Below, piece by piece: positions 1,670 to 6,353 of a DNA stretch of 6,392 nt. The notes under the pieces are model-generated. The model saw nothing but the letters and a program-made list of their open reading frames with translations, searched no databases and had not been told where the DNA came from. Source of the DNA: an uncultured Flavobacteriales bacterium. GTDB taxonomy: Bacteria; Bacteroidota; Bacteroidia; Flavobacteriales; Vicingaceae. The stretch spans positions 1-6,392 of the forward strand of contig CAJXFJ010000109.1 in assembly GCA_913052515.1 (NCBI GenBank). Direction: 5' to 3'. Each line of letters begins with the position of its first letter. Position 1 is the first letter of the stretch. Both the position numbers and the translations under genes were made by a program.

Positions 1670-2302
1670 ATGATTCAAGAGCTAAAAGAGAAGTATGCAG
1701 GAATTTTTGAACCTGCATTAATAGAAGAGATTAACCAAGTAGCCACTATTAAAGAGCTTAAAGAAGGTGACCAATTGATGGAAATAGGCAATTTTATTCG
1801 TTCTATGCCTTTGTTGCTAGAAGGGGCAGTGAAAGTATTACGTGAAGATGAAAATGGAGATGAATTATTACTTTATTTTATAGAAGGAGGTGAAACTTGT
1901 GCAATGACTATAACTTGTTGTTTAGGCAATACGCGATCTGAAGTGAGAGCAATTGCTGAAAAGGATACAAGTATGATTATGCTCCCAGTTCAAAAAATGC
2001 AAAGCTGGATGGACCAATATAGCAGTTGGAGAAACTTTATCTTAAATAGTTACCAAGCAAGAATGATGGAGCTTTTGAATACCATTGATAAAATTGCTTT
2101 CCTTAAAATGGATGAACGATTGCTTGCTTATTTAAAGGAAAAGTCGAATGTCTCTGATGATGACTTTATTCGAAGCACCCACCAAGAAATAGCTTATGAG
2201 TTACATACTTCTAGAGTTGTGATTTCACGCTTATTGAAACGCTTGGAAAATGATGGATACATTGAATTACATAGAAATAAGATTAAAGTCATTGCTCTGT
2301 AA
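1670..2302 (+). CDS. Crp/Fnr-family transcriptional regulator with Cys cluster in sensor domain
   Basis: A 210-residue cytoplasmic DNA-binding protein. Residues about 5-110 form a cyclic-nucleotide-binding-like beta-roll (MEIG 37-40, LLLEGAVKV about 48-56, FIEGGE 70-75). A long dimerisation helix covers about 110-145. The C-terminal winged helix-turn-helix covers about 150-210, with HTH core THQEIAYELHTSR (170-182) and recognition helix SRVVISRLLKRLE (181-193). The recognition helix keeps Arg182 and Arg187 (E. coli CRP R180 and R185), but the Glu that both CRP and FNR use is Val183. The phosphate-binding cassette is atypical: GE (74-75) and RS (89-90) remain, but the loop between them is about four residues longer than in CRP and holds all the protein's cysteines (C77, C83, C84; C-x5-C-C). 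It lacks FNR's N-terminal Fe-S cysteines. I infer that it activates the adjacent sulfur genes through GTAAC-N4-GTTAC sites; the signal (persulfide, redox or a nucleotide) is unknown. Its stop codon lies inside the first such site. Confidence 0.9.
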   Translation: MIQELKEKYAGIFEPALIEEINQVATIKELKEGDQLMEIGNFIRSMPLLLEGAVKVLREDENGDELLLYFIEGGETCAMTITCCLGNTRSEVRAIAEKDTSMIMLPVQKMQSWMDQYSSWRNFILNSYQARMMELLNTIDKIAFLKMDERLLAYLKEKSNVSDDDFIRSTHQEIAYELHTSRVVISRLLKRLENDGYIELHRNKIKVIAL

Positions 2303-2312
2303 CTCAAGTTAC
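2299..2312 (+). promoter_or_regulatory. Candidate Crp/Fnr operator 1, upstream of tauE
   Basis: GTAACTCAAGTTAC is a perfect inverted repeat GTAAC-N4-GTTAC (6-bp arms here, since T and A flank the central CA). It overlaps the TAA stop of the regulator gene (2300-2302). Its centre (2305.5) is 36.5 bases upstream of the final G of the TACATTTG box at 2335-2342. The same palindrome recurs at 3165 and 6340. Binding by the neighbouring regulator is inferred. Confidence 0.68.
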
Positions 2313-2334
2313 TTCTGCTTCAATTATAAGCTTA

Positions 2335-2342
2335 TACATTTG
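2335..2342 (+). promoter_or_regulatory. -7 element of the tauE promoter
   Basis: TACATTTG is an exact TAnnTTTG match. Transcription would begin near 2349, only about 8 bases before the ATG at 2357. No good TTTG -33 element exists; the downstream GTTAC half of operator 1 covers that region, as expected for an activator-dependent promoter. Confidence 0.5.
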
Positions 2343-2356
2343 AGCAAATTTTAGCT

Positions 2357-3157
2357 ATGGATATATTTACTTTACTAGGCTATATAGGAGCCATTATAAT
2401 AGGCGTGGTTTTAGGACTAATCGGAGGTGGAGGTTCAATTATAACTGTTCCCATATTTGTCTATTTGCTTGGAATTAACCCAGTGATGGCTACTGCCTAT
2501 TCTTTGTTTGTAGTTGGAAGTACGGCTTTAGTAGGAACAATAAGAAACTTACCTAAAAAACAGGTAGATGTAAAAACAGGAGCTGTTTTTGCAATACCAG
2601 CACTTTTAGCTGTTTACTTAACCCGCAAGTTTTTGGTGCCTGCCATACCCAATGAATTATTTACTATTTCAAATTTTACAGTAAGCAAAGAGCTTGGCAT
2701 TATGGTCTTTTTTGCCCTGATTATGCTATTGGCAGCAATTTCGATGATACGGAACAAGCGAAAAGATGAAGGAGTAGAAACCGAAATCTCTTACAATTAC
2801 CCAATGATTTTATTAGAAGGCGCATTGGTTGGCTTACTTACAGGTATTGTGGGTGCAGGTGGAGGATTCCTAATTATTCCTGCTTTAGTATTATTAGCAA
2901 AGCTGCCCATGAAAAAAGCAGTTGCTACCTCATTAATGATTATTGCAGTTAAATCTTTAATTGGATTTATTGGTGATGTAGAGAATCTGTCCATCGATTG
3001 GGCTTTTTTACTTTCTTTCACCACACTTTCAATAGTTGGTATTTTCTTGGGCATTTATATGAATAAATTCATCAATGGGAAGAAGTTAAAGTCTGCCTTT
3101 GGGTGGTTTGTTTTGCTTATGGGTATTTACATTATTTTAAAAGAGCTAAGCATCTAA
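2357..3157 (+). CDS. TauE/SafE-family sulfite/sulfur-anion exporter
   Basis: A 266-residue inner-membrane protein made of two related halves, with about eight predicted membrane segments (about 5-25, 28-40, 43-62, 74-90, 113-131, 150-182, 188-205, 217-235, 247-264; borders approximate). Each half carries the family's Gly-rich re-entrant motif: GLIGGGGSIITVP (20-32) with NPVMATAYSLF (41-51), and GIVGAGGGFLIIP (163-175) with PMKKAVATSL (184-193). The family moves sulfite, sulfoacetate, thiosulfate or related anions, probably driven by the ion gradient. The next gene makes sulfite and thiosulfate from persulfide, so export of one of these is the most economical role; substrate is inferred. TauE sits in the Staphylococcus cst sulfide operon in a comparable place. 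The gene has its own operator and promoter between it and the regulator gene, and no terminator separates it from the dioxygenase gene. The start is the first ATG after the -7 box; no Shine-Dalgarno is seen. Confidence 0.92.
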   Translation: MDIFTLLGYIGAIIIGVVLGLIGGGGSIITVPIFVYLLGINPVMATAYSLFVVGSTALVGTIRNLPKKQVDVKTGAVFAIPALLAVYLTRKFLVPAIPNELFTISNFTVSKELGIMVFFALIMLLAAISMIRNKRKDEGVETEISYNYPMILLEGALVGLLTGIVGAGGGFLIIPALVLLAKLPMKKAVATSLMIIAVKSLIGFIGDVENLSIDWAFLLSFTTLSIVGIFLGIYMNKFINGKKLKSAFGWFVLLMGIYIILKELSI

Positions 3158-3164
3158 CTGAAAA

Positions 3165-3178
3165 GTAACTTTAGTTAC
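3165..3178 (+). promoter_or_regulatory. Candidate Crp/Fnr operator 2, upstream of the persulfide dioxygenase gene
   Basis: GTAACTTTAGTTAC is a perfect GTAAC-N4-GTTAC palindrome in the 84-base gap after tauE. Its centre (3171.5) lies 36.5 bases upstream of the last G of the TAACTTTG box at 3201-3208, the identical distance seen at tauE. That places it near -43 relative to the predicted start, the class II activator position. Confidence 0.7.
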
Positions 3179-3200
3179 GTATTTTGAACTTCTGGAGGCT

Positions 3201-3208
3201 TAACTTTG
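3201..3208 (+). promoter_or_regulatory. -7 element of the persulfide dioxygenase promoter
   Basis: TAACTTTG matches TAnnTTTG exactly. The predicted start near 3215 gives a leader of about 27 bases to the ATG at 3242. The only nearby TTTG (3183-3186) is 14 bases away, too close for a normal -33 element, so this promoter probably relies on the activator at 3165-3178. Confidence 0.5.
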
Positions 3209-3241
3209 TGATAGTTTAACTGATATTTAGAAATAGAAGAT

Positions 3242-4648
3242 ATGAAAGTAGAACAAATATATACAGGCTGTTTAGCGCAAGGAGCTTACTACATTGAAAG
3301 CGAAGGAGAAGTGGCTATCATAGACCCTTTGAGAGAAGTAAAGCCATACATGGAAAAGACGGAGAAAAATGGGGCTAAAATCAAGTATATTTTTGAAACC
3401 CATTTTCATGCAGACTTTGTTAGTGGACATCTTACCCTAGCAAAGCAAAGTGGTGCAACTATTATTTACGGCCCAACTGCTAAAACAAATTTTGATGCTT
3501 TAATTGCTGAAGATCAGCAAGAATTTAAATTAGGGGCGGTAACCATTAAAGTATTACACACACCGGGTCATACCATGGAGAGCACCACCTATTTATTGAA
3601 AGATGAAAACGGAAAAGATGTCGCCATATTTACCGGTGATACCTTGTTTTTAGGGGATGTAGGGAGACCTGATTTGGCACAAAAAGCGGCAAGTTTAACA
3701 CAAGAAGAGTTGGCTGCTACTTTATACAAAAGTCTCAGAACACAGATTATGCCTTTGGCAGATGATGTAACCGTTTATCCTGGTCATGGGGCAGGCTCAG
3801 CTTGCGGTAAAAACATGATGAAAGAAACGGTGGACACTTTGGGTAATCAAAAGAAGATGAATTATGCCTTAAGAGCAGATATGACTGAAGATGAATTTGT
3901 GAAGGAAGTAACCGATGGATTGTTGCCTCCTCCGCAATACTTTCCGCAAAATGTGCAAATGAACAAAGAGGGCTATCAAGATATTGATGAAATTTTGAGT
4001 AAGGGTACTCAAGCACTTTCACCTGAAGCTTTTGAAGCAGCTGCTAATGAAACGGATGCTGTTATTCTAGATGTTAGGCATCAAAGTGAATTTGTGCAAG
4101 GACATATTCCAAGGTCAATTTTTATTGGTTTAGATGGTGACTTTGCTCCTTGGGTAGGGGCTTTAATAGCAGATGTAAAACAACCCATACTTTTAATTAC
4201 TCCTGAAGGAAGAGAAGAGGAAGCTGTTACAAGACTTTCAAGAGTTGGTTTTGATAATACCTTAGGTTTTTTAGCGGGAGGGTTTGAAGCTTGGAAGGCG
4301 GAGAAGGAATACGATACAATGAGTTCAATTCCGGCCGATGAGTTTGCAAGTAATTACGAAGAAAATATGCCGATTATTGACGTTCGAAAAGAATCCGAAT
4401 TCAAAGCTGAACACTTAGACAAAGCGACTAACATTCCCTTGAGTTTTGTAAATGAGCATTTGGCTGAATTGCCTAAAGAGGTTAGTTTTTATGTGCATTG
4501 TGCCGGTGGCTATCGCTCTGTAATTGCTGGTTCAATTTTAAAGTCTCGTGGAGTTCACAATTTAATAAATGTGGAAGGTGGATTTGGAGCTTTGAAAAAC
4601 ACCAATTTAAAAACGACAGATTATGTTTGTCCCAGCAGTGTGAAATAA
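3242..4648 (+). CDS. CstB-like persulfide dioxygenase-sulfurtransferase (MBL + two rhodanese domains)
   Basis: 468 residues, no signal peptide, so cytoplasmic. Domain 1 (about 1-230) is an ETHE1/Blh-type metallo-beta-lactamase fold: HFHADFVSGH (54-63), TPGH (107-110), TGD (131-133), GRPD (141-144) and YPGHG (179-183). By analogy with ETHE1 the mononuclear iron ligands are His54 is a second-shell or first ligand candidate, with His110 and Asp133 completing the set. Domain 2 (about 255-360) is a rhodanese fold whose active-site position (LLITPEGR, 317-324) has no Cys: a pseudo-rhodanese. Domain 3 (about 362-460) is an active-type rhodanese with loop CAGGYR (Cys420 to Arg425). This order, plus the extra Cys188 in GAGSACGK, matches the Staphylococcus CstB plan. 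The family oxidises low-molecular-weight persulfide with O2 to sulfite; the rhodanese then combines sulfite with persulfide sulfur to give thiosulfate. The gene follows tauE, has its own operator and promoter, and ends at a strong terminator. Orthology to CstB, rather than convergent fusion, is inferred. Confidence 0.9.
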   Translation: MKVEQIYTGCLAQGAYYIESEGEVAIIDPLREVKPYMEKTEKNGAKIKYIFETHFHADFVSGHLTLAKQSGATIIYGPTAKTNFDALIAEDQQEFKLGAVTIKVLHTPGHTMESTTYLLKDENGKDVAIFTGDTLFLGDVGRPDLAQKAASLTQEELAATLYKSLRTQIMPLADDVTVYPGHGAGSACGKNMMKETVDTLGNQKKMNYALRADMTEDEFVKEVTDGLLPPPQYFPQNVQMNKEGYQDIDEILSKGTQALSPEAFEAAANETDAVILDVRHQSEFVQGHIPRSIFIGLDGDFAPWVGALIADVKQPILLITPEGREEEAVTRLSRVGFDNTLGFLAGGFEAWKAEKEYDTMSSIPADEFASNYEENMPIIDVRKESEFKAEHLDKATNIPLSFVNEHLAELPKEVSFYVHCAGGYRSVIAGSILKSRGVHNLINVEGGFGALKNTNLKTTDYVCPSSVK

Positions 4649-4668
4649 TAATTCGAGAATAGTAAATG

Positions 4669-4696
4669 AAAGGGTCGGCTAATGCCGGCCTTTTTT
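4669..4696 (+). terminator. Intrinsic terminator after the persulfide dioxygenase gene
   Basis: An 11-bp stem pairs 4669-4679 (AAAGGGTCGGC) with 4684-4694 (GCCGGCCTTTT), with two G-T pairs, around a TAAT loop and followed by further Ts to 4696. It starts 20 bases after the stop codon and would end the tauE-dioxygenase transcripts. Confidence 0.87.
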
Positions 4697-4720
4697 GTTG
4701 GAAATACTTCATTAATAATA

Positions 4721-4735
4721 AAAGACAACGTCTTT
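4721..4735. repeat. Short inverted repeat upstream of a lipoprotein gene
   Basis: AAAGAC (4721-4726) and GTCTTT (4730-4735) form a 6-bp inverted repeat around AAC, about 30 bases before the lipoprotein start. It could be an operator or a small hairpin in the leader. It has no T-run, does not resemble the GTAAC palindromes and may be chance. Confidence 0.25.
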
Positions 4736-4764
4736 CGTTTTGAAGAAAACCAAATTTACTTTTT

Positions 4765-5424
4765 ATGAAATACTACCTCTTTTCAATGATAATTGCACTT
4801 ACCTTATTTTCTTGTAAAAAGGATGAGGAAAATACTGTTCAAGTAGAAACTCAAAATACCCCTATATCTCCCAACTACTTCCCTTTAGAAGTAGGAAATT
4901 ATTGGGTGTATGAAAACTATTCTGTAGATACTTCAGGGAATGAAACAAACTTGAATAAACAAGATAGTGTAAGAGTTATAAGGGATACAATGGTAAATGG
5001 GAATAGGTATTTTTATATGTATGGTAAAGAATATCCGACTAACTATGAAGATAGAGGGTGGTTTAGAGACTCCAGTGGGTATTTAGTTTCACTTGGATAT
5101 CAATCTAAGTTAAACTTTGTAAACTTCTCAGATACCTTAGATGACTTTATCAATTACACATCTAATGGAGATACCTTACAATATACTTTTTACATGTTAC
5201 ATTTACCTGAAATAAAAACGATTGTTCCGGCAGGAGAGTTTGCTGTCATAGATTACTTAGGTACAACTATTACTTCGGTAGAAGCATTGCAAAAGCTTTA
5301 TGACTACCCTAGATACTCACACCAACAATACGCTGAAAATGTTGGCAAAGTATTTCAAAGTTTTCATTATTCAGCAAGTCCTAATCATATTGAAAAAAGA
5401 CTTGTTCGGTATCGTATTCACTAG
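4765..5424 (+). CDS. Lipoprotein of unknown function ('FPLxVGNYWVY' type)
   Basis: 219 residues with a lipoprotein signal peptide: MKYY, a hydrophobic stretch, then the lipobox LFSC with Cys17 lipidated. The following residues are KKDEEN; an acidic, charged stretch just after the Cys is associated with surface export of lipoproteins in Bacteroidota, so outer-leaflet display is possible. A short linker leads to NYFPLEVGNYWVYENY (37-52), a motif I recognise at the start of many secreted Bacteroidota proteins of unknown function. The rest looks like a single beta-rich domain, rich in Tyr, ending in YAENVGKVFQSF (189-200) and RLVRYRI (212-218), also typical of that group. No catalytic motif is apparent. 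It follows the dioxygenase gene by 116 bases but is separated by a strong terminator and lacks a GTAAC operator, so a link with sulfur metabolism is not supported. It ends one base before the stop of the convergent minus-strand gene. Confidence 0.8.
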   Translation: MKYYLFSMIIALTLFSCKKDEENTVQVETQNTPISPNYFPLEVGNYWVYENYSVDTSGNETNLNKQDSVRVIRDTMVNGNRYFYMYGKEYPTNYEDRGWFRDSSGYLVSLGYQSKLNFVNFSDTLDDFINYTSNGDTLQYTFYMLHLPEIKTIVPAGEFAVIDYLGTTITSVEALQKLYDYPRYSHQQYAENVGKVFQSFHYSASPNHIEKRLVRYRIH

Positions 5425-5425
5425 G

Positions 5426-6292
5426 CTATTTTCTAAATCCATATAAATTCTGCCCAATAAAGTCTTGCGGGAAGTTTTCATCCCCTTCAAATCCCAATTT
5501 GGTTTCTCCATTTTCATTGGGTATGTGAGCCGTTTTAAAGAGGTAATCCCATAAGCTTAGGCTAATGCCGTAGTTCACTCCATAGCTAGCTTTGGGCAGG
5601 TAATAAGCATGGTGGTGTAAATGCATCACCGGATTATTAAAAATGTACTTGAAAGGTCCGTAGGTTAGTTTGATATTGGCATGATTCAAATGTCCAATGG
5701 TAATGGCAACAAAATGGACAAGGTAAGCTTGTTCGGGTTCAAAGCCACCTAATACCATAACTGCTATGGTTTTTAAAGGTTTGTACAAAATATTTTCCAT
5801 CCAATGAAAACGCAAGTGGGCTGCAAAGCCCATTTCTTTAACAGAATGGTGCACTTTGTGAAATTGCCACAAGGCAGGAATACGATGTAGTAAGACATGA
5901 GTAAACCATTGAACAAAATCAAGTAAAACAAAAAATAGAAGAAGAGAAGCCCAAGTTGGCCAAGTTTTGGTGTTGATTAAACTGAGGCTATCCATTTGAA
6001 TACCTATGGATTCAAAACCCAATTGCATGATTCGATAAAAGCCACTGATAAAAATGGCAAACAAGAAGAAATTAAAAAACATGTAGAAGCCGTCAAGCCA
6101 GAAATCCTTTCTAATAATTCCTTGTTTTTTTCGCCATGGAAAAGCAATTTCCATTCCCCAAACAACTAAAGAAATAATGATTAATCCCCAAAAGTAATTT
6201 TGATACCAAGGAACTTGGAAAATGATGCTATTCCAAGTCCAGTTTAGGCTACCTAAGAATGAATCTTTAAAAGCTTGGAATAATTCATACAT
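5426..6292 (-). CDS. Sterol desaturase / fatty acid hydroxylase family membrane protein
   Basis: 288 residues, integral inner-membrane protein with hydrophobic segments at about 32-50, 66-86, 113-131 and 175-200. It carries the family's di-iron His boxes: HVLLH (132-136, HX3H), HKVHH (145-149, HX2HH) and HLHHH (224-228, HX2HH), plus HLRFH (159-163) and HLNH (201-204). Members use O2 and a di-iron centre to hydroxylate or desaturate lipids such as sterols, sphingoid bases, fatty acyl chains and carotenoids. Bacteroidota generally lack sterols, so an acyl-lipid, aminolipid or sulfonolipid substrate is more likely; the sequence does not say which. Length is normal and all key His residues are present. 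A GTAAC-N4-GTTAC site with a near-consensus -7 box lies just upstream, linking it to the same regulator as tauE and the persulfide dioxygenase. It converges on the lipoprotein gene with one base between the stop codons. Confidence 0.9.
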   Translation of the reverse strand: MYELFQAFKDSFLGSLNWTWNSIIFQVPWYQNYFWGLIIISLVVWGMEIAFPWRKKQGIIRKDFWLDGFYMFFNFFLFAIFISGFYRIMQLGFESIGIQMDSLSLINTKTWPTWASLLLFFVLLDFVQWFTHVLLHRIPALWQFHKVHHSVKEMGFAAHLRFHWMENILYKPLKTIAVMVLGGFEPEQAYLVHFVAITIGHLNHANIKLTYGPFKYIFNNPVMHLHHHAYYLPKASYGVNYGISLSLWDYLFKTAHIPNENGETKLGFEGDENFPQDFIGQNLYGFRK

Positions 6293-6308
6293 AGTTAAAA
6301 TGTTTTTA

Positions 6309-6316
6309 TAAAATTA
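6309..6316 (-). promoter_or_regulatory. Candidate -7 element of the sterol desaturase promoter
   Basis: On the minus strand 6316-6309 reads TAATTTTA, one base from TAnnTTTG. Transcription would start near 6302, leaving about 10 bases before the ATG. The box end is 37.5 bases from the centre of operator 3, one base more than at the two plus-strand promoters. Confidence 0.4.
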
Positions 6317-6339
6317 CACCTATCTGATGGTATTGTTCA

Positions 6340-6353
6340 GTAACAAGAGTTAC
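6340..6353 (-). promoter_or_regulatory. Candidate Crp/Fnr operator 3, upstream of the sterol desaturase gene
   Basis: Read on the minus strand this is GTAACTCTTGTTAC, a third perfect GTAAC-N4-GTTAC palindrome. Like the other two, read toward its gene, it has T as the first spacer base. It sits 48 bases upstream of the sterol desaturase ATG. It could alternatively serve a plus-strand gene starting beyond the right edge, but the -7 geometry fits only the minus-strand gene. Confidence 0.62.

Follow-up and report, generated by a model that had tools for sequence, protein, structure and literature searches.

Three perfect copies of the palindrome GTAAC-N4-GTTAC lie within 6,392 nucleotides of contig CAJXFJ010000109.1 from an uncultured Flavobacteriales bacterium (the whole stretch analyzed, hereafter the window), close to the gene of a Crp/Fnr-type regulator, and the locus raises the question of whether this protein reads the palindromes and which genes it would control through them. 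An earlier note on the same DNA had proposed a local regulon tied to the adjacent Crp/Fnr protein. Our computational analysis supports the tie to the regulator, since the sites are intergenic, precede the same orthologous genes and covary with the recognition helix of the protein. The description as local was too narrow, and a purely local regulon was rejected, because sites are spread over several contigs of the same genomes, including contigs other than that of the regulator. Most probably, the palindromes are conserved operators placed as for class II activation, read by the adjacent Crp/Fnr protein and serving a sulfide and sulfane-sulfur regulon. The features of the window on which the argument is built are listed below.

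1670..2302, forward strand: Crp/Fnr-type regulator of 210 amino acids, which would read the palindromes (Pfam domains cNMP_binding and HTH_Crp_2, both scoring above cut-off)
2299..2312, forward strand: palindrome GTAACTCAAGTTAC, proposed tauE operator, centre at predicted -41.5 (motif scan)
2335..2342, forward strand: -7 box TACATTTG, 8/8, centre-to-centre distance to the palindrome 33 bp
2357..3157, forward strand: TauE/SafE-type transporter (tauE), 266 amino acids (Pfam PF01925)
3165..3178, forward strand: palindrome GTAACTTTAGTTAC, candidate operator for the persulfide dioxygenase gene, with a predicted centre position of -41.5 (motif scan)
3201..3208, forward strand: -7 box TAACTTTG, 8/8, centre-to-centre distance to the palindrome 33 bp
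3242..4648, forward strand: protein with a metallo-beta-lactamase fold and two rhodanese domains, 468 amino acids (Pfam Lactamase_B, Rhodanese)
4765-5424: protein without Pfam match, 219 amino acids, between the persulfide dioxygenase and sterol desaturase-like genes, with no palindrome in front
5426..6292, reverse strand: sterol desaturase/fatty acid hydroxylase-like protein, 288 amino acids (Pfam PF04116)
6309..6316, reverse strand: -7 box TAATTTTA, 7/8, centre-to-centre distance to the palindrome 34 bp
6340..6353, reverse strand: palindrome, GTAACTCTTGTTAC when read toward the sterol desaturase-like gene, whose operator it is proposed to be (motif scan)

The product of 3242..4648 would be a persulfide dioxygenase (PDO)-rhodanese fusion, a name that we take from its domains, and the Pfam scan also identified a DUF4920 protein and a universal stress protein in the window.

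Palindromes and Promoter Geometry

The window contains exactly three GTAAC-N4-GTTAC copies, all perfect and at the positions previously described, and scanning its whole length detected no further site with up to two mismatches. Dinucleotide shuffles of the window gave on average 0.01 exact copies and never reached three (0/200), while three matches become ordinary when up to two mismatches are allowed (shuffle mean 1.83; 49/200 shuffles), so that the perfection of the copies is what counts. The placement between genes was likewise confirmed: palindrome 2299-2312 overlaps no more than the tail end of the regulator gene (1670-2302), stop codon included, and palindromes 3165-3178 and 6340-6353 are both intergenic.

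The distribution of the motif was evaluated around relatives of the regulator that were retrieved with an alignment of 18 homologues. Loci from named genomes, those of the 80 best-scoring relatives among 563 confirmed ones, were added to the window, giving a set of 1.52 Mb that was 89% coding according to a simple open reading frame (ORF) caller. The earlier note had asked whether the motif is as frequent inside genes as in promoters, and it is not: 190 of the 206 occurrences were intergenic and 16 were inside genes, compared to means of 0.36 intergenic and 1.1 genic for the 59 other permutations of the half-site letters and at most one intergenic occurrence for each of the other gaps (0 to 10) between the half-sites. 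Among 95 aligned sites read toward the box, additional letters were conserved outside the palindrome (T before GTAAC, 0.84; T and G after GTTAC, 0.77 and 0.65), while spacers and flanks varied from copy to copy. The thymine suggested earlier as first spacer base is indeed seen in all three window copies in the direction of their genes, yet it is not a general rule, as this position had frequencies of A 0.32, C 0.32, G 0.01, and T 0.36 in the aligned sites. The highest-scoring permuted half-site, ATGAC-N4-GTCAT (10 intergenic versus 1 genic), was the only other one with an intergenic excess and is perhaps the operator of another regulator.

The spacing between the palindrome and the promoter was nearly invariant. 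According to the work on Flavobacterium psychrophilum, sigma-A promoters of flavobacteria carry a TAnnTTTG -7 box at -12 to -5 (PMC9723704), and a perfect TAnnTTTG was found 31-35 bp from the palindrome centre in 98/206 sites, never in both orientations together. Ninety-five of these boxes were at exactly 33 bp and three at 34 bp, against 0.29 per position elsewhere, and a box accompanied 1.6% of random intergenic points. A box at 33 bp, combined with its known position from -12 to -5, locates the palindrome centre at -41.5. NtcA is described as activating from GTAN8TAC sites centred at about -41.5, a class II arrangement (PMC3898017), and 95 of the 98 boxed sites share this position with class II Crp-type activators relative to predicted starts. 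It is thus very likely, judging from this regularity in the sequences, that the palindromes act as operators in class II geometry, and our own arithmetic from the boxes would put the transcription starts of the window near 2347, 3213, and 6304.

The same geometry bears on whether the regulator represses from these sites instead. Crp/Fnr proteins can repress, and NtcA is reported to do so from sites downstream of the -35 box (PMC3898017), but the fixed -41.5 position is that of a class II activator, which makes repression improbable.

Regulator and Recognition Helix

The protein encoded at 1670..2302 belongs to the Crp/Fnr superfamily, with PF00027 at 36.6 bits (cut-off 27.5) and PF13545 at 38.9 bits (cut-off 27). 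Its contact residues R182, V183, and R187 are, together with its cysteines, invariant in 40 homologues, and the PDB alignment shows the same three residues, R, V, and R, in the helix of NtcA. We compared residues 182, 183, and 187 with nearby sites in 121 loci, of which 81 were close (the window and all 80 regulator loci, up to 10 kb of flank) and 40 distant (about 2.5 kb of flank, one with 7.4 kb in all). The distant loci were taken in E-value order after G001, G002, and G004, skipping seven (G197:C10, G175, G119, G049, G050, G126, and G047), and the last two, L197 and L198, were picked for a site adjoining the regulator.

The motif covaries with the recognition helix. A GTAAC-type site (up to one mismatch) with a box was present in 100 of the 102 Arg-Val-Arg loci (exact in 90) and in 2 of the 19 Arg-Glu-Arg loci. 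Considering distant loci only, the GTAAC site was found in 19/21 Arg-Val-Arg versus 2/19 Arg-Glu-Arg loci (p 5e-7), and in 0/17 of the latter when L197 and L198 are removed. A GTGAC-type site (up to one mismatch) with a box was detected in four of the 19 Arg-Glu-Arg loci, all four beside PDO genes (L168, L176, L185, and L191); GTGAC-N4-GTCAC was exact in three and had one mismatch in L191, and it is a candidate sister operator of the Arg-Glu relatives. A similar argument was made by Rodionov et al. (2005, PMC1274295), who reasoned from a proline at this helix position in HcpR2, a clade with an identical predicted consensus.

This published consensus raises the alternative that the sites belong to HcpR2 and that the genes behind them answer nitrosative stress. 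Besides the shared consensus, genome G081 has a site and a box before hcp together with an Arg-Pro Crp-type protein (L222), but the window protein has Val rather than Pro at the deciding position, hcp (PF03063) was present in none of the eight site-carrying relatives of the window (G001-G008), and hcp is absent from the named target clusters. In G001, moreover, the one other readable Crp-type helix (L220) is neither Arg-Val nor Arg-Pro, a third protein (L239) being below the family cut-off and unreadable. Helix, targets, and the missing hcp led us to reject HcpR2 as reader of the sites, and this explanation is very unlikely. The G081 arrangement itself (L200/L219), with its -7 box 33 bp away from the site, fits the 2005 prediction for HcpR2 and adds class II spacing to it.

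The search for paralogue helices returned a regulator-matching protein in 13/30 loci, and the remaining 17 may include other Arg-Val paralogues. Maribacter halichondriae (G007) has further regulator paralogues of the Arg-Val type (L240 and the main copy L248) plus one of the Arg-Glu type (L245). In the PDO-linked loci L197 and L198, an Arg-Glu helix and the lack of C83/C84 coexist with an exact copy of GTAAC-N4-GTTAC, which has a perfect -7 box 33 bp away.

Genome-Wide Distribution in Relatives

Genome-scale tests were performed in the genomes of relatives, namely G001-G008 and 198 Bacteroidia genomes that include G001, G002, and G004. Within G001-G008 the exact motif occurred 6-12 times per genome, 72 times in total versus 99 for the reversed control pattern, and the count per genome was discarded as an uninformative test. 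Position and promoter box carry the signal, not motif number: 51 of the 72 sites were outside genes and 41 of these 51 had a box of at least 7/8 at 32-34 bp, compared to 2 of the 21 genic sites with such a box at the right place. The regulon of perfect sites is therefore small, each genome having 3 to 8 boxed promoters, while the remaining sites look like chance occurrences. In the larger set, the full arrangement (palindrome, 22 bp, and box) was found in 33/198 genomes, with 49 matches versus 2 for the reversed pattern, and a regulator relative at E <= 1e-35 was present in 28 of these 33 genomes versus 87 of the 165 others (Fisher p 0.0005). Among the five genomes having the arrangement without a close relative, G136 has a weaker regulator relative with an identical helix and G081 has the hcp site and the Arg-Pro protein mentioned above.

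That the palindromes are chance occurrences or a repeat element without regulatory role is a negligible prospect. Some copies are indeed genic, others stand in a tandem array without boxes (L127), and the genome totals are not above the reversed control, but the intergenic bias, the fixed spacing to the -7 box, the helix covariation, the shuffles, and the conservation before the same genes all argue otherwise, as do spacers and flanks that differ among copies. The array in L127 (G004), with four GTAACAGCGGTTAC copies exactly 127 bp apart (2024, 2151, 2278, and 2405) and no -7 box, looks like a tandem repeat rather than a series of operators.

Taken together, it is likely that the adjacent Crp/Fnr protein uses the palindromes as operators and works as class II activator of a sulfide/sulfane-sulfur regulon, and several observations weigh against this conclusion. 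The 80 loci are centred on the regulator and mutually related, so that site counts are not independent; 37 of the 252 unique sites pooled from the window, loci, and genome regions have no box of 7/8 or better; and the third box of the window, that of the sterol desaturase-like gene, is weaker (7/8 at 34 bp). Arg-Val-Arg loci L178 and L188 have no site, L197 and L198 are exceptions to the Val/Glu rule, and 17 of the 102 Arg-Val-Arg loci also have a GTGAC-type site (up to one mismatch), which in L164 at least is one and the same site. A PDO neighbour is absent in 12 of the 19 Arg-Glu-Arg loci, and part of the helix contrast thus reflects the missing target cluster; when the distant loci are restricted to those beside a PDO gene, the GTAAC site was present in 16/16 Arg-Val-Arg versus 2/7 Arg-Glu-Arg loci. 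Plain motif counts in G001-G008 show no excess over the reversed control, and in three genomes, G040, G104, and G187, the full arrangement has no explained reader. Motif, fixed geometry, recurrent targets, and helix covariation are computational results; binding by the 1670-2302 protein, activation rather than repression, and a reactive-sulfur signal are inferred.

Proposed Target Genes

From the pool of 252 unique sites, 215 had a box of at least 7/8 and 205 of these had a downstream ORF. Clusters of targets, each named from one scanned member, comprised PDO-rhodanese (65), TauE (35), FAD oxidoreductase (17), YeeE/YedE (16), DUF983 (14), cytochrome c/Tll0287 (10), outer membrane efflux protein (8), peroxiredoxin (8), the regulator itself (7), SulP (7), sterol desaturase-like (5), and molybdopterin sulfite dehydrogenase-like (2), with 11 single cases that included cytochrome bd subunit I, an NrfD/ferredoxin-type protein, three thioredoxin-fold proteins, an FNR-like regulator, a secreted protein, and four proteins without Pfam match. 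Most genes behind the sites are related to sulfur, and neighbours of the regulator are over-represented among the targets, as the loci were centred on it. Some names are nearest models below their cut-offs: the FAD oxidoreductase is nearest sulfide:quinone reductase (SQR; 215 of 525 bits), the molybdopterin protein is nearest SorA (224 of 600 bits), and the YeeE/YedE protein is nearest TsuA, far below the cut-off (39 of 400 bits).

Conservation before orthologues, also proposed earlier as a check, was assessed with homologues collected by tblastn (window included), allowing one mismatch in the site. Site and box preceded 60/74 PDO and 37/46 TauE homologues, and both genes stood as members of the proposed regulon; the sterol desaturase-like gene, with site and box in 6/18 homologues and a site, boxed or not, in 8/18, is less certainly included and is its weakest member. 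Regulator-type genes had site and box in 8/87 cases, and none was found before six universal stress genes and one DUF4920 gene. In G001 and G002, DUF983 lies elsewhere than the regulator and is preceded by a site of its own (L109, L117). Moreover, the ORFs behind 20 regulator-distant sites of distant Bacteroidia include hcp, five rhodanese-like proteins, thioredoxin, thioredoxin reductase, a TauE-like protein, and PDO, names that, hcp excepted, were read from the first residues with no family search, and several of these 20 sites have a downstream ORF without recognizable sulfur link. In M. halichondriae, an exact site precedes an FNR-like Crp gene (L154, 2191-2889), and its perfect -7 box is 32 bp away.

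Cysteines and the Signal Sensed

C77, C83, and C84 are the sole cysteines of the window regulator, and over the 121 loci they were retained in 121, 118, and 114 cases, respectively; because most Arg-Glu-Arg relatives without sulfur neighbours also retain them, the cysteines are not specific to sulfur-linked members. The AlphaFold model of the regulator (pLDDT 83.5, pTM 0.62) places them in a short helix and loop, residues 77-86, its least certain region, and this segment appears by analogy to occupy the place of the CRP phosphate-binding cassette. The nearest solved folds were NtcA and CRP-type proteins, with HcpR of Porphyromonas gingivalis at rank 50.

Sulfane-sulfur sensing is our preferred reading of the signal, with heme or general redox sensing as alternatives; whether a sulfur signal acts through C77, C83, and C84 is evenly balanced. 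FNR binds a [4Fe-4S] cluster with four cysteine ligands. The regulator might read the sites and yet sense heme, NO, oxygen, or redox state, with sulfide stress accompanying low oxygen. The targets include cytochrome bd, cytochrome c, and peroxiredoxin, the effector domain of CooA has a cysteine, Cys75, described as heme ligand (PMC6955866), and HcpR is described as heme-dependent. Nonetheless, sulfur genes make up most target clusters, three cysteines are too few for an FNR-type Fe-S set, and no heme ligand was identifiable in the regulator, which leaves this explanation unlikely, if less so than the other rivals considered here.

Under the preferred reading, a regulator dimer would contact the two GTAAC half-sites via R182, V183, and R187, recruit RNA polymerase from -41.5 as class II activator, and turn on tauE, the PDO gene and, less certainly, the sterol desaturase-like gene. 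These targets would belong to a small sulfide/sulfane-sulfur regulon of Flavobacteriales and more distant Bacteroidia, and the signal would be reactive sulfur acting on the three cysteines. The most far-reaching version, which we put forward tentatively and with somewhat more doubt than belief, is that a Crp/Fnr clade widespread among Bacteroidota swapped cyclic-nucleotide sensing for direct sulfane-sulfur sensing via a C-x5-C(C) cluster in the old cAMP pocket and became a main activator of the sulfide response, bringing cytochrome bd, DUF983, and the sterol desaturase-like enzyme under one control, and that GTAAC versus GTGAC recognition was re-tuned largely by Val versus Glu. If true, many Bacteroidota would gain a named sulfide switch in the form of this Crp/Fnr regulon, and DUF983, the sterol desaturase-like enzyme, and the outer membrane efflux protein, whose roles are unclear, would be tied to sulfur stress. 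Besides, operator, box, and spacing are so regular that targets would become predictable from sequence, and the Val/Glu exchange offers a clean and testable example of altered specificity in a Crp protein.

Comparison With Known Systems

The motif consensus is already published for another Crp/Fnr clade. HcpR2, a member of the same superfamily present in Bacteroides, has the predicted consensus GTAACnnnnGTTAC, the same as here (Rodionov et al., 2005, PMC1274295), but differs in its proline at CRP position 181, versus V183 in the window protein and its Arg-Val-Arg relatives, and in its predicted target hcp, versus sulfur genes and conserved cysteines here. NtcA resembles the window regulator in its GTAN8TAC sites at -41.5, class II activation, and Arg-Val helix with R, V, and R (PMC3898017), and differs in serving 2-oxoglutarate and nitrogen control in cyanobacteria. 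The window protein scored far below the NCBIfam equivalogs of NtcA (46.4 of 244.95 bits) and cAMP-binding CRP (45.1 of 266 bits), and its three cysteines set it apart from the four-cysteine FNR proteins. The best PDB sequence match was 3dv8 (7.4e-17), a Crp/Fnr protein of Eubacterium rectale whose cysteines align with C77 and C83, but it has Arg-Glu in the aligned helix and its entry name assigns no function.

With regard to function, there is a likeness to FisR, described as an activator of sulfide-oxidation genes that senses reactive sulfur by three conserved cysteines (PMC9774590); FisR, SqrR/BigR, and MarR-type sensors likewise control sulfide-oxidation genes and differ by protein family. 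Crp/Fnr proteins were not among the sulfane-sulfur sensors found in the literature searched (ArsR, MarR, OxyR, PerR, FisR, and others), and our search of open-licence PMC articles yielded no account of a Crp/Fnr sulfide regulon in Bacteroidota. Overall, as far as the literature searched is concerned, the novelty lies in the clade, with its three conserved cysteines, and in its sulfur regulon, not in the letters of the motif.

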